From Clostridiales bacterium (GTDB taxonomy: Bacteria; Bacillota; Clostridia; Oscillospirales; Oscillospiraceae): 64,000 bases of DNA. Position 1 is the stretch's first letter; each line of letters opens with the position of its first letter. A program made the position numbers and the translations under genes. Below the pieces are notes generated by a model. That model worked only from the letters and a program-made list of their open reading frames with translations. It was not told the DNA's origin and did not search any database. Positions 20,034 through 40,310 of this stretch are shown piece after piece. Location: the NCBI GenBank assembly GCA_022775085.1, contig JALFJQ010000043.1, positions 1 to 64,000 on the forward strand. Direction: 5' to 3'.

Positions 20034-23000
20034 CTATGCGTCGATGGTAGCAATTCCCAGCGTGATTTCTTCCAGAACATCCAGCAGAACGCGTACCGTG
20101 TCCAGAGAGGTCAGCACAGTGACACCGTTTTCAACGGCGCACCGCCGGATCTGGCTGGAACCGGAGTGTACATCCTCGCAGCGGACATCCATGGTGTTGA
20201 TGACATAGGAGACGAAACCGGACCGGATGGAATCCAGAATTTCGGTGGAACCGTCATCGACTTTTGCACGGATGCGGGTTTTGATCCCGTCTTTGCGCAG
20301 ATAGACCGCAGTACCGGGTGTTGCTTCAATGTTGAAGCCCAGCCGATAGAAACGCCGAATCAGCGGAAGCGCTTCTTCCTTGTCCTCGTCTGAAACAGTG
20401 GCAAACACGGTGCCATAGTTCAGGAGCTTCACCCCGGAAGCCTGAAGGGCTTTATACAGGGCCCTGGTCATGGAATTGTCATAGCCGATGGCCTCACCGG
20501 TGGACTTCATTTCCGGAGAGAGGTAGGCATCCAGGCCGCGAAGCTTGGAGAAGGAGAAAGCGGGGGCCTTGACGTAGTACCGTTTCTTCTCGTCGGGATA
20601 GAGAACATCCACACCCTGATCGTGAAGGCTGTGGCCGAGGGCAACCCGTGTTGCAATGTCTGCCAGAGGATAGCCGGTGGCTTTGCTCAGGAAGGGCACG
20701 GTTCTGGAGGAGCGGGGGTTGACCTCAATGATGAATACGTTATCTTCTGGGTCAACGATGAACTGAATGTTGAACAGGCCCTTGATACCGATGGCTGGCC
20801 CCAGCTTCTTGGCGTACTGCAAAATAATGCCCTTGACCTTGTTGGAAATGGAGAATGGCGGATAGACGGAGATGGAGTCACCGGAATGGACACCGGTTCG
20901 CTCCACCAGTTCCATGATACCGGGAACAAATACCTGTTCCCCATCACAGATGGCGTCAATCTCTACTTCTTTGCCGCGGATATATTTATCGACCAGAACC
21001 GGCTTGTCCGCGTCAATCTCAACGGCAGTATGCAGATAATGGCGCAGCTGCGCCTCGTTGGACACAATCTGCATGGCTCGACCGCCGAGAACGAAGGAGG
21101 GACGTACCAGCACCGGGTAGCCGATCTCCTTTGCTGCGGCAACACCATCTTCGATCCGGGTCACTGCACGGCCCTTGGGCTGGGGGATGTTCAGCTCCAG
21201 CAGCAGCTTTTCAAAGGCATCCCGGTTTTCCGCTTTTTCAATGGCGGCGCAGTCCGTTCCGATGATGTTCACACCAAGGTCGGTCAGCGGCTGAGCAAGG
21301 TTGATGGCCGTCTGACCGCCAAGAGCGGCGATGACACCGTCTGGCTGCTCCAATGTGATAATGTTCATCACATCTTCTGCCGTCAGGGGCTCAAAATACA
21401 GCTTGTCCGATGTGGTGTAGTCGGTGGAAACCGTCTCCGGGTTATTGTTGATGATAATTGCTTCATATCCCGCGTTCCGAATGGTCTGCACCGCGTGAAC
21501 AGTGGAGTAGTCAAATTCCACACCCTGTCCGATTCGGATGGGGCCGGAGCCGAGAACAATCACCTTTTTGCGTTCAGACACAACCGACTCGTTCTCAGAC
21601 TCGTAGGTTGAGTAGAAATAGGGGATATAGCTGTCAAATTCCGCGGCGCAGGAATCGATCATTCGGTAACCGGGGGTCATTCCTTTTTCTTTGCGCAGCA
21701 GGAAGATGCTCTTTTCCGTTGTGCCCCAGATGTCGGCAACAGCACGGTCGGAGAAGCCCATTTTCTTGGCGGCAAACAGTGCGGCAGAGTCTCCGACGTG
21801 GTTCTTCAGGAAACCTTCCATGTTGACGATATTCCGAATTTTTCGCAGGAAGAAGCGGTCAATTCCGCAGCAGTCCGCAATTTCATCTACACCAGTGCCC
21901 AGACGCATTGCCTGCGCGATGGCGTAAATCCGGTCATCGGTACCGGTGGGAATGTATTCCATGAGAGCATCTTTCGTCCAGTCATCGAATTTCTTCATAT
22001 GAAGGTGGACAATGCCGATTTCCAGAGAGCGGATGCCCTTCAGCAGGCTCTCCTCGAAGGTTCGGCCAACGCTCATAGTTTCGCCAGTGGCCTTCATCTG
22101 GGTGCCGAGGCGGTTATTGGCATCGGAGAACTTATCAAAGGGGAACCGGGGCATTTTGGTAACGACATAGTCCAGAGCCGGTTCAAAAGCCGCACAGGTG
22201 TTGGCCAAGGGAATTTCATCCAGCGTCATACCCACGCAGATTTTGGCCGAAACCCGGGCGATAGGATAACCGCTGGCCTTGGAGGCCAATGCGGAGCTGC
22301 GGGAAACTCTGGGGTTTACTTCGATCAGATAGTACTGGAAGGAGTTAGGATCCAGCGCGAACTGCACGTTGCAGCCGCCCTGAATCTTCAGCGCCCGGAT
22401 CAGCTTCAGAGCGGAGTCCCGGAGCATATGATATTCCTTGTTGGTCAAGGTTTGAGAGGGGCACACGACAATGGAGTCACCGGTGTGGATGCCCACAGGA
22501 TCCAGATTCTCCATGTTGCAGATGGCGATGGCGGTGTCGTTGGCATCGCGCATGACCTCATATTCGATTTCCTTGAAGCCCTTGATGCTCTTTTCCACAA
22601 GAACCTGATGAACAGGGGAGAGGACAAGGGCATTTTTCATGATCTCCCGGAACTCTTCCTCGTTATCAGCGAAGCCACCGCCTGTACCGCCCAGGGTAAA
22701 AGCGGGGCGCAGAACTACCGGGTAGCCGATCTCTGCCGCTGCGTTCAGGCCTTCCTCCATGGAATTGGCAATCAAGGAGGGAAGTACAGGCTCCCCAAGG
22801 CTCTGGCACAGCTCCTTGAACATCTCACGGTCTTCTGCCTGCTCAATGCTGTAGCTTGGAGTGCCGAGAAGCTCCGTATGGCATTCCTTTAAAATGCCCT
22901 TTTTCTCCAACTGCATGGCCAGATTCAGGCCTGTCTGACCGCCGATGCCGGGGACGATGGCATCGGGCCGCTCATAGCGCACGATCCGTGCGATATATTC

Positions 23001-23213
23001 CAGCGTCAGTGGTTCCATATAGACCTTGTCCGCGATGGCAGGGTCTGTCATGATGGTGGCGGGGTTGGAGTTGCACAGAACGACTTCGTACCCTTCCTCT
23101 TTCAGTGCGAGGCAGGCCTGAGTGCCGGCGTAGTCAAACTCGGCAGCCTGCCCGATCACGATGGGTCCGGAACCGATCACGAGAATTCTATGAATATCTG
23201 TCCGCTTAGGCAT
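20034..23213 (-). CDS. carB: Carbamoyl phosphate synthase large subunit
   Basis: A 1059-residue enzyme with two homologous ATP-grasp halves. The first begins [21 protein letters not shown]; the second begins [21 protein letters not shown] near residue 550. Both carry the paired FEPLT/MEPLT and IEVNPR motifs. The C-terminal MGS-like regulatory domain follows residue ~930. It makes carbamoyl phosphate from bicarbonate, 2 ATP and ammonia channelled from CarA, feeding pyrimidines and arginine. It is the last gene of the nitrogen-donor operon and overlaps carA by 8 bases. Confidence 0.97.
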
Positions 23214-24300
23214 GTTTGGCTTCCTCCATCATCTTGATGAACTGTCCGAACAGGTAATCGCTGTCCTGGGGCCCCGGTGCGCTCTCTGGATGATACTGAA
23301 CGCTGAACACCCGATCCTCCTGATATTCCAATCCCTCTACGGTATTATCCAGAAGATTGACATGGGTGACCGCCAGCGGTGTTTTCTCAAGGCTATTGGC
23401 ATCCACGGCGTAGGAATGGTTCTGAGATGTGATCTCAACCTTTCCGGTCCGAAGATTCTTGACAGGATGGTTTCCGCCTCGGTGTCCAAATTTCAGTTTG
23501 TAGGTTTCCGCACCGTAAGCCAGCGCAATAATCTGGTGTCCCAGACAGATCCCAAACATGGGATACTTACCGCGAAGTTCCCGCACCATCTGGATCACAC
23601 ACGGAACGTCCTCCGGATTTCCGGGGCCGTTGGACAGGAACACACCATCAGGGGATACGGCTTCGATTTCTTCAGCGGTGGTATTCCAGGGAAATACGGT
23701 AACATCGCAGCCCCAGCTGTTCAGTCGGCGTACAATATTCTGCTTCATGCCGCAGTCGATGGCTGCCACGTGGTATTTTTTGTGCTCTGACGGAGAAAAA
23801 TATGGCTCCTTAACGCTGACCCGGGACACCTGATCGGTAGGCAGGGACAGAGACTGCAGGTGGGCAAAGGCAGCAAGATTTGAGGTGGAGGCATCGGTGA
23901 TCAGCACCTTGCAGGTGCCCTTGTCACGGATATACTTTGCCAGCTTGCGGGTGTCAACTCCTGCGATGCCAATGATACCGTTTTTTACCATCACCTCTTC
24001 CAGCGTCATGGCGGCGCGGAAATTGGACGGCTCGTTGTTGTATTCCCGCACGATCATCGCACTGGCGGTGGGGCGAAGGGACTCGTAATCCTCATCGCAC
24101 ATACCATAGTTACCGATCAGCGGATAGGTCATGACGATGGCCTGACCGGTATAGGAAGGATCGGAGAGGATCTCCTGATAACCCACCATGGAGGTATTAA
24201 ATACGATTTCCGCAGCGCAGTCACCGGAGGCCCCAAAGCCATAGCCGTAAAACTCCGTGCCGTCCTGCAAAATGATTTTTCTGTCACATTGGTGAATCAT
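23206..24300 (-). CDS. carA: Carbamoyl phosphate synthase small subunit (glutaminase)
   Basis: A 364-residue class I glutamine amidotransferase subunit. The N-terminal CPSase_sm_chain domain ([35 protein letters not shown]) precedes a triad-type glutaminase with [14 protein letters not shown] (Cys nucleophile) and [13 protein letters not shown] (His, Glu). It supplies ammonia to CarB. It overlaps purF by 4 bases and carB by 8, so all three are translationally coupled. Confidence 0.96.
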
Positions 24301-39694: not shown

Positions 39695-39725
39695 TTTTTG
39701 ATAATGGGAGAAGGGGGGAGTCCGA

Positions 39726-40310
39726 TTGGTTTTCGGTGCAGAAACATACGGTGTGCTGGTGGTTTCCAATCAGCACAGGTTTGATGACGCCCTGATGCCC
39801 ATGCTGCCGCCTTCGGAATACTACCCGGTGTGTTTTACAAGCAACGTTGCCGCCGCACGCAGGGAACTGCTGTCACGGGATTATGATTTTGTGATTATCA
39901 ATGCGCCTCTGCCGGACGATCCGGGAACTAGATTTGCCATTGATGCCTGCGGCCGGTCAGATACGGTGGTTCTTCTTCTGCTGCGCCCGGAGAACTTTGA
40001 AGAGGTGAATGAACGGGTGACCTCTCACGGCGTTTTCACATTGCAGGTTCCGTTTCCTGCCAGCACGCTCCGCCAATGCCTGAAATGGATGATCTCCGCC
40101 CGGGAGCGTCTGCGCAAAATGAAAACGATCAATCTGTCTGTGGAGGAGAAGATGGAAGAGATCCGCCTGGTAAACCGGGCAAAGTGGATCCTGATCGAAC
40201 AGCTGAAAATGAATGAATCCGATGCTCACCGGCATATTGAAAAGCAGGCCATGGACCGCTGTACATCGAAAAAAGAAATCGCCCTGGGTATTATTAAGAC
40301 CTACACCTGA
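39726..40310 (+). CDS. ANTAR-domain RNA-binding antiterminator protein
   Basis: A 194-residue protein with a receiver-like N-terminal half (about 1-120; DYDFVIINAPLPDDPG at the usual phospho-acceptor region, with Asp/Asn positions atypical) and a C-terminal ANTAR domain (about 135-190; LVNRAKWILIEQLKMNESDAHRHIEKQAM). ANTAR proteins bind paired hexaloop hairpins in nascent RNA and prevent termination. The start is TTG with GGGGGGAG upstream. Its position after glnA and near the glnN attenuator suggests control of nitrogen genes. The receiver lacks an obvious standard Asp pocket, so the input may not be phosphorylation. Confidence 0.88.
   Translation: MVFGAETYGVLVVSNQHRFDDALMPMLPPSEYYPVCFTSNVAAARRELLSRDYDFVIINAPLPDDPGTRFAIDACGRSDTVVLLLLRPENFEEVNERVTSHGVFTLQVPFPASTLRQCLKWMISARERLRKMKTINLSVEEKMEEIRLVNRAKWILIEQLKMNESDAHRHIEKQAMDRCTSKKEIALGIIKTYT

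Follow-up and report, generated by a model that had tools for sequence, protein, structure and literature searches.

We analysed 64,000 nucleotides of a Clostridiales bacterium of the Oscillospiraceae (contig JALFJQ010000043.1 of assembly GCA_022775085.1, positions 1 to 64,000 of the forward strand; hereafter the window). Eleven minus-strand genes form a run of ∼18 kb in it, with glnN first (from 38055) and carB last (to 20034). A sequence-only reading had taken these genes to be grouped by their use of glutamine or aspartate nitrogen under one nitrogen circuit. The source genome is a 2.72-Mb draft, 98.8% complete. The named relatives among the matches belong to Faecousia, a genus of the Oscillospiraceae (85% for GuaA, 93% for PurF', the second PurF described below), and the host, judged from these relatives, is probably a gut bacterium.

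Open reading frames (ORFs) and NCBIfam and Pfam matches placed the genes of the run, all on the minus strand, where they had been read. glnN (35953..38055; GSIII_N 267.5 bits, Gln-synt_C-ter 149.7 bits) encodes a type III glutamine synthetase. What had been read as the two genes amt-glnK does carry both domains, but in a single fused ORF of 572 amino acids (aa) (34026..35744; ammonium transporter TIGR00836, 417 bits at 7-409, and PII families at 457-565); no literature on such Amt-PII fusions was found among open-licence papers. Then follow asnB for a glutamine-dependent asparagine synthetase (32381..33961; NF006949, 617 bits), purC (31650..32363; TIGR00081, 260 bits), purA (30363..31637; NF002223, 488 bits), purB (28935..30350; TIGR00928, 363 bits), guaA with its glutaminase domain (27371..28921; NF000848, 715 bits), pyrG (25727..27325; NF003792, 824 bits), purF (24297..25730; TIGR01134, 519 bits), carA (23206..24300; TIGR01368, 481 bits) and carB (20034..23213; NF003671, 1476 bits). 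The spacing is 208 bases between glnN and amt and 64 bases between amt and asnB. From asnB to carB it is 17, 12, 12, 13, 45, -4, -4 and -8 bases, in agreement with the range of an 8-base overlap to 45 bases given earlier. The short gaps and overlaps are consistent with a single operon. The run is flanked, as had been noted, by glnA and an ANTAR gene, both of them plus-strand genes (38486-40310).

Leader of the run and its occurrence

The best minus-strand promoter match in 19900-38500, TTGACA-17-TAAAAT (11/12), is located before glnN at 38142..38170. The scan of this interval gave 15 sites in total vs. 11.3 in shuffles, and further minus-strand promoter-like sites were seen in amt (34120), asnB (33147) and carB (20755). 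Internal promoters at most junctions had been named as the finding that would speak for separate transcripts; the sequence scan found the short gaps free of minus-strand promoter-like sites, and the sites at 34120 and 33147 do not exceed chance. Directly downstream of the promoter lies an intrinsic terminator with a U-run (38080..38131, minus strand; -30.4 kcal/mol, z -7.5, shuffled mean -10.6 kcal/mol). A simple terminator scan, with a stem rule that tolerates no internal mismatch, misses it. The terminator overlaps an ANTAR-type mini-hairpin, AAGGC-AAGGAU-GUCUU (38117..38132, minus strand), with A at position 1 and G at position 4 of the hexaloop. The mini-hairpin is an alternative fold of the 5' arm of the terminator. 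A mechanical scan for hexaloop hairpins overlapping a terminator returned one site in the 64-kb window.

We aligned 12 hand-picked glnN leaders, leaving out the first hairpin of locus L035, L053, L056 and the reverse site of L009. RNAalifold, run with no structure supplied, returned the same 5-bp hairpin. Three of the five pairs changed on both sides, 96.7% of cells were paired (30-60% in slid versions), and the covariation score was reached by none of 500 shuffles; the number of further pair types was not above shuffles (450/500). Loop position 4 is G in all 12 training leaders and position 1 is A in 10 of them.

The covariance model R1 was built from glnN leaders only. Its match at the run (38081-38134) scored 54.7 bits; the next values in the own genome were the palindrome's own echo at 20 bits and an independent match at 19.3 bits, with 150 of 1045 first-look candidates scored. 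The weak matches on contigs C26, C41, C52 and C24 (15.8-19.3 bits) were not counted, as no set member (gene of the run) was seen downstream. No R1 site above 10.5 bits was detected in the amt leader (35745-35952) or before glnA, and inspection of the amt leader by eye gave nothing convincing for ANTAR sites.

Fifty-nine relatives were scanned with strict filters, and a cut-off of E <= 0.0015, chosen on reading the list, left 24 places. A set gene follows 22 of these: glnN at 18, purC at two, asnB at one, and asnA and then glnN at one. The other two run off the contig (genome G018) or are unrelated (G059). Since R1 was trained on glnN leaders, and the glnN places of G005 and G032 are training contigs, the purC, asnB and asnA sites are the most independent. 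Weaker sites were found before purC in L136 and L143 and before amt in L140. In G002 the set is split over two contigs, glnN-asnB-ilvE-purA-purB-guaA-pyrG and purC-purF-carA-carB, and each piece has its own site; in G020 the piece purC-purA-purB-guaA-glmS-pyrG-nadE has its own site as well.

R1 gave 53 rows in the fetched loci. Seventeen were dropped, mostly reverse-strand echoes of the palindrome together with weak or partial rows (L133 5741, L154 1167, L152 7629, L130 12990, L138 15799). Among the 36 rows kept, 34 have a set member first, with glutamate synthase counted in, and two have none (L151 at a contig end, and L173). The loop reads ANNGNN in 30 of 32 non-training sites, a count that excludes L127 and L129 (on the contigs of training loci L006 and L007), L173 and the reverse row of L131; because R1 itself favours such loops, the count serves as a check rather than as proof. 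The two misses, L155 and L136 (14463), have a shifted version by eye that was not counted.

Some relatives (L028, L132, L137, L138 and L140) carry two or three tandem hairpin-terminator units. Two hexaloop-terminator units precede glnN in L028, which is from the culturable Angelakisella massiliensis, and in L132, L137 and L138, and three precede a separate amt-PII gene in L140 (8438-8644, G043:C27). A hexaloop-terminator also lies before glnA-nitR, nitR being the ANTAR gene, in L053 (9533-9611, with pyrG and purF downstream) and in L056 (2074-2152), where the pair may control itself.

A strong hairpin without a good U-run on the minus strand occupies the amt-asnB gap (33962..34025, minus strand). 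It recurs in the close relatives L005, L006, L007, L009, L012 and L128, and a hairpin of different sequence is found there in L130. It may be an attenuator or an RNA-stabilising element and may give the two halves of the run different levels. Elsewhere in the window, 8129-8219 matches the glycine riboswitch aptamer of Rfam (62.8 bits), and 7775-7828 matches SpF59, a small RNA family of Streptococcus that is unexpected outside this genus (68.8 bits).

Gene set in relatives, pathway operons and second copies

To compare gene neighbourhoods we used the best 80 of 586 guaA loci and forty regions around guaA or R1 matches; the neighbourhoods come from a home-made ORF caller, by which genes can be missed or misplaced. 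The set, whose conservation the sequence-only reading had proposed to survey, is kept outside this strain in shuffled form, but the exact order occurs only in close relatives: L006, L127 (same contig as L006) and L128, as well as L005 and L012 within their reach. Other orders are glnN-purC-purF-purA-purB-guaA-pyrG-carA-carB (L141), glnN-amt-asnB-guaA-pyrG-purF (L137), glnN-purA-purB-guaA-pyrG (L138) and glnN-asnB-pyrG-carA-carB (L142 and L154). The nitrogen-transfer genes glmS, glutamate synthase, ilvE and nadE join the set in relatives, with glmS inside the run in L007, L009, L014, L130 and L135; several relatives have a split glutamate synthase across the divergent promoter. The run is absent from view at most of these 80 guaA loci, the best of 586; the gene occurs widely, and many of the contigs are short.

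At 23 loci (21 distinct contigs) with the leader and at least four set members, we found no purD, purE, purH, purL, purM, purN, 237-aa gene (see below), pyrC, pyrD, pyrE, pyrF or pyrK inside the operon by BLASTP at E 1e-10 against the own genome's copies, with unlabelled genes remaining. Close to the operon, but outside it and on the opposite strand, are purE in L010, past nitR, and pyrB-carB' in L138. In L019, in which no leader was found, pyrC-carA-carB lies upstream of guaA. Ammonia-only relatives of the same genus (e.g., G011 and G018) had been considered from missing PyrG, PurA, PurB, CarA and full-length GuaA, and were dropped: missing contigs are likelier than gene loss because the G018 leader is ∼200 bases from a contig end and the G010 contig starts inside guaA.

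The steps PurD, PurE, PurH, PurN and PurL, reported absent from the run, were indeed located in another stretch of the genome. A pur operon on contig C35 (L172) holds purE, the divergent copies purC' and purF', purM, purN, a 237-aa gene, the gene for 5-aminoimidazole-4-carboxamide ribonucleotide formyltransferase, purD and purL. The 237-aa protein was taken by eye for a PurO-like inosine monophosphate cyclohydrolase, without an NCBIfam match. A pyr operon on contig C26 (L173) holds carB', pyrK, pyrD, pyrF, pyrE and pyrB, and the end of a dihydroorotase-like gene, seen by eye, precedes carB'. The 25 purine and pyrimidine genes located comprise 14 for donor steps, eight of them in the run, and 11 others, none of them in the run (Fisher p = 0.003, with the two classes drawn after the run was seen). 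This exceeds what chance would give, but some donor users, namely PurL, PyrB and a second asnB, lie outside the run. The second asnB-type gene is a plus-strand gene close to where the run ends, just past pyruvate kinase (16652-18481).

purC, purF and carB are each present in two copies in the genome. The N-terminal Cys of the run PurF, behind a short propeptide, is Cys7 and aligns with Cys1 of the Bacillus subtilis enzyme (1ao0). PurF' has Gly at the place of this nucleophile, and none of 120 PurF' homologues among the matches listed (8000 scored) has a Cys within the first five residues. PurF' retains a 12-residue stretch, which we take to be the loop that binds phosphoribosyl pyrophosphate (PRPP). 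PurC' (L172 4699-5388, G000:C35) is 36% identical to the run PurC, scores below the PurC family cut-off, and differs from the run PurC in the motif after DEI. CarB' is 72% identical to the run CarB and has no adjoining carA. No other copy of purA or pyrG was found, and the run purB is the sole copy above cut-off.

Class I amidotransferase domains in the own genome at E <= 1e-8 are those of the run carA, guaA and pyrG and of two small proteins; the run carA is the only carA among them. A lone half of guanosine monophosphate (GMP) synthetase (317 aa by ORF call) is encoded at C57 with no glutaminase neighbour. The own genome also encodes AsnA, the asparagine synthetase that depends on ammonia; 19 of the 28 genomes examined have it, vs. 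2 of 14 controls. Among genomes carrying a site at E <= 0.0042 it was detected in 16 of 17, and among those lacking one in 3 of 11 (p = 0.0004, phylogeny ignored). A second type III glutamine synthetase (L174 6366-8447, G000:C54) is 58% identical to glnN; it has no R1 leader and lies near an aspartate aminotransferase gene.

Regulator pair, proposed control and known systems

The pair divergent from glnN consists of a GlnA-like protein (38486..39694, plus strand) and, directly 3' of its gene, a NitR-like ANTAR protein (39726..40310, plus strand). The GlnA-like protein aligns over its full length with solved glutamine synthetases and scores 340 bits with TIGR00653 (cut-off 429). It lacks about a dozen residues behind the HxxxS stretch, and GVFKAP replaces PGYEAP, with Lys at the place of the flap Glu, which we take to be the catalytic flap residue of glutamine synthetase. 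This place is Lys in 12, Arg in one, Ala in one and Glu in one of 15 GlnA-like proteins encoded beside ANTAR genes. The ANTAR domain of the second protein scores 53 bits (PF03861), its receiver-like N-terminus 15.4 bits (PF00072, below cut-off), and the phospho-acceptor position of the receiver-like part is Asn in 14 of 15 such proteins. PADLOC gave no match for the ANTAR protein. On these sequence features the predicted sensor is the GlnA-like protein, and the pair may sense by protein contact; contact appears likelier than a kinase because the phospho-acceptor is Asn and the receiver match is below cut-off.

Grouping by donor under one nitrogen circuit is supported by the single ANTAR-type terminator leader that heads the run, by the same leader before purC-, asnB-, asnA- and glnN-led pieces in relatives, and by a shuffled set that gains nitrogen-transfer genes and not other pathway steps. 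We propose, at about an even chance of being right, that ANTAR antitermination controls the run, that low ammonium induces it, and that amination is thereby switched from ammonia to glutamine and aspartate as donors. The proposal builds on the leader, its covariation, its place before set genes in relatives, the kept though shuffled set and the second copies, all of them observed at the sequence level. glnN to carB would be made as one long transcript behind one promoter and one terminator with an ANTAR-type hexaloop hairpin. The neighbouring NitR-like protein would open the terminator by binding the hairpin, likely at ammonium shortage, and low nitrogen would thus be the inducing state. Contact with the GlnA-like protein may inform NitR about glutamine. 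Amination from glutamine and aspartate would then replace that by isozymes encoded elsewhere, the second copies, which would use ammonia. The terminator must leak or be bypassed for a basal level, because pyrG, purA, purB and carA were found only in the run. As the leader is retained before split or reshuffled pieces in some relatives, the run would switch nitrogen uptake and nitrogen spending on together. A fuller version has two parallel amination sets, ammonia-fed in the pathway operons and glutamine-fed in the ANTAR-led run, with the whole cell changing donor through a pseudo-glutamine-synthetase sensor, which would act by contact and not by phosphorylation; we consider this version doubtful.

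Several observations weigh against the proposed control and donor switch. The Fisher tests ignore phylogeny and the cut-offs were picked after the fact. One hairpin fits between promoter and terminator at the window site, so the two tandem hairpins of known targets are absent, and on its own the mini-hairpin has little stability (-3.8 kcal/mol, z -1.6), which may fit an RNA held by protein. We found no ammonia-type counterpart for PyrG, PurA or PurB, apart from two weak purB-family matches below cut-off. In G043 AsnA is encoded within the leader-led operon, which places it inside the circuit there. PurL of the pur operon retains its glutaminase Cys and is still glutamine-dependent, the lone GMP synthetase half was not seen in the closest relatives G005, G009, G030 and G032 (78-87% complete), and CarB', which is 72% identical to the run CarB, may share the run's CarA. 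These last three points also favour a plain nitrogen regulon in which the ANTAR leader coordinates uptake, assimilation and use, and in which the second copies are unrelated and no donor is switched; PurF' could then be a regulatory or inactive subunit, with CarB' sharing CarA. The leader evidence is independent of the second copies and suits such a regulon too. Two findings speak against it: PurF' keeps the PRPP loop while the glutaminase is lost in 120 of 120 among the matches listed, and AsnA accompanies the leader. We regard the plain regulon as possible, if on balance not what we expect.

The sign of the switch could also be the opposite, with the terminator opened at plentiful glutamine and the glutamine spenders made only when affordable. 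Most of the run consumes glutamine, and the sign is not readable from the sequence, but the run starts with glnN and the ammonium transporter gene, and the published NitR/ANTAR nitrogen systems, as described in the accessible text of PMC6316151, serve assimilation under limitation; this reversal seems improbable to us. We consider it very improbable that a nucleotide-synthesis cluster came to lie behind glnN by chance, with no regulatory meaning for the distal genes. The confinement of the exact order to close relatives would fit such neutral clustering, whereas purC-led purine pieces and an asnB-led piece have sites of their own, and nitrogen users outside nucleotide synthesis join the set while other nucleotide steps do not.

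What the genes of an operon usually share is a pathway. In the run the shared feature is the nitrogen donor, which would make donor economy itself a regulatory unit. To our knowledge, the choice between ammonia and glutamine is known mainly from single enzyme pairs. Escherichia coli has such a pair in AsnA and AsnB, which carry out the same step with ammonia and with glutamine, respectively; here several steps would be paired, with the glutamine set in one run. Should the second copies prove to be ammonia-fed, these gut Oscillospiraceae would give genetic access to the bacterial choice between ammonia and glutamine. Single-hairpin leaders would broaden what counts as an ANTAR target, and the GlnA-like protein would be a testable model for nitrogen sensing by an ANTAR protein without a phospho-site.

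ANTAR/NitR control of nitrogen genes and A1/G4 hexaloops over terminators are already known. In the main texts of the open-licence literature we found no report of a regulon covering purine, pyrimidine and asparagine amination, or of a single-hairpin ANTAR target or a GlnA pseudo-enzyme partner, and the open-licence literature gave no match for this operon or for a donor-switch regulon. According to the accessible text of PMC6316151, the glnA-linked NitR of Clostridium saccharobutylicum raises the glutamine synthetase/glutamate synthase genes on nitrogen limitation. The two systems have in common an ANTAR protein linked to glnA, antitermination and a response to nitrogen limitation, the latter two being predictions here. 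The run differs in that it adds amt-PII, asnB and purine and pyrimidine amination genes, that its main synthetase is of type III, and that the GlnA-like partner lacks the flap Glu.

ANTAR dual-hairpin regulons were described previously, with A1/G4 hexaloops over terminators, two hairpins as targets, and ammonium transporters, PII and glutamine and glutamate synthases downstream (Ramesh 2012, PMC3369931, accessible part). The hexaloop overlapping a terminator and the nitrogen genes downstream are shared. The window site has one hairpin and not two, although tandem hairpin-terminator units exist in some relatives, and nucleotide and asparagine amination is not named in the accessible part of that paper. 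The Clostridium thermocellum locus Clo1313_2030-2036 has an ANTAR gene next to genes for glutamine synthetase and a split glutamate synthase, with no purine or pyrimidine genes mentioned in the accessible text (PMC4676874); the same neighbourhood is present in several relatives of the window. In Crenarchaeota, a second PurF without the N-terminal Cys was reported, for which ammonia dependence was suggested as one possibility, and a Cys-less E. coli PurF is cited there as still working with ammonia (PMC3261824, accessible part). Here, PurF' lies in a classical pur operon, and the Cys-bearing PurF in the ANTAR-led run.

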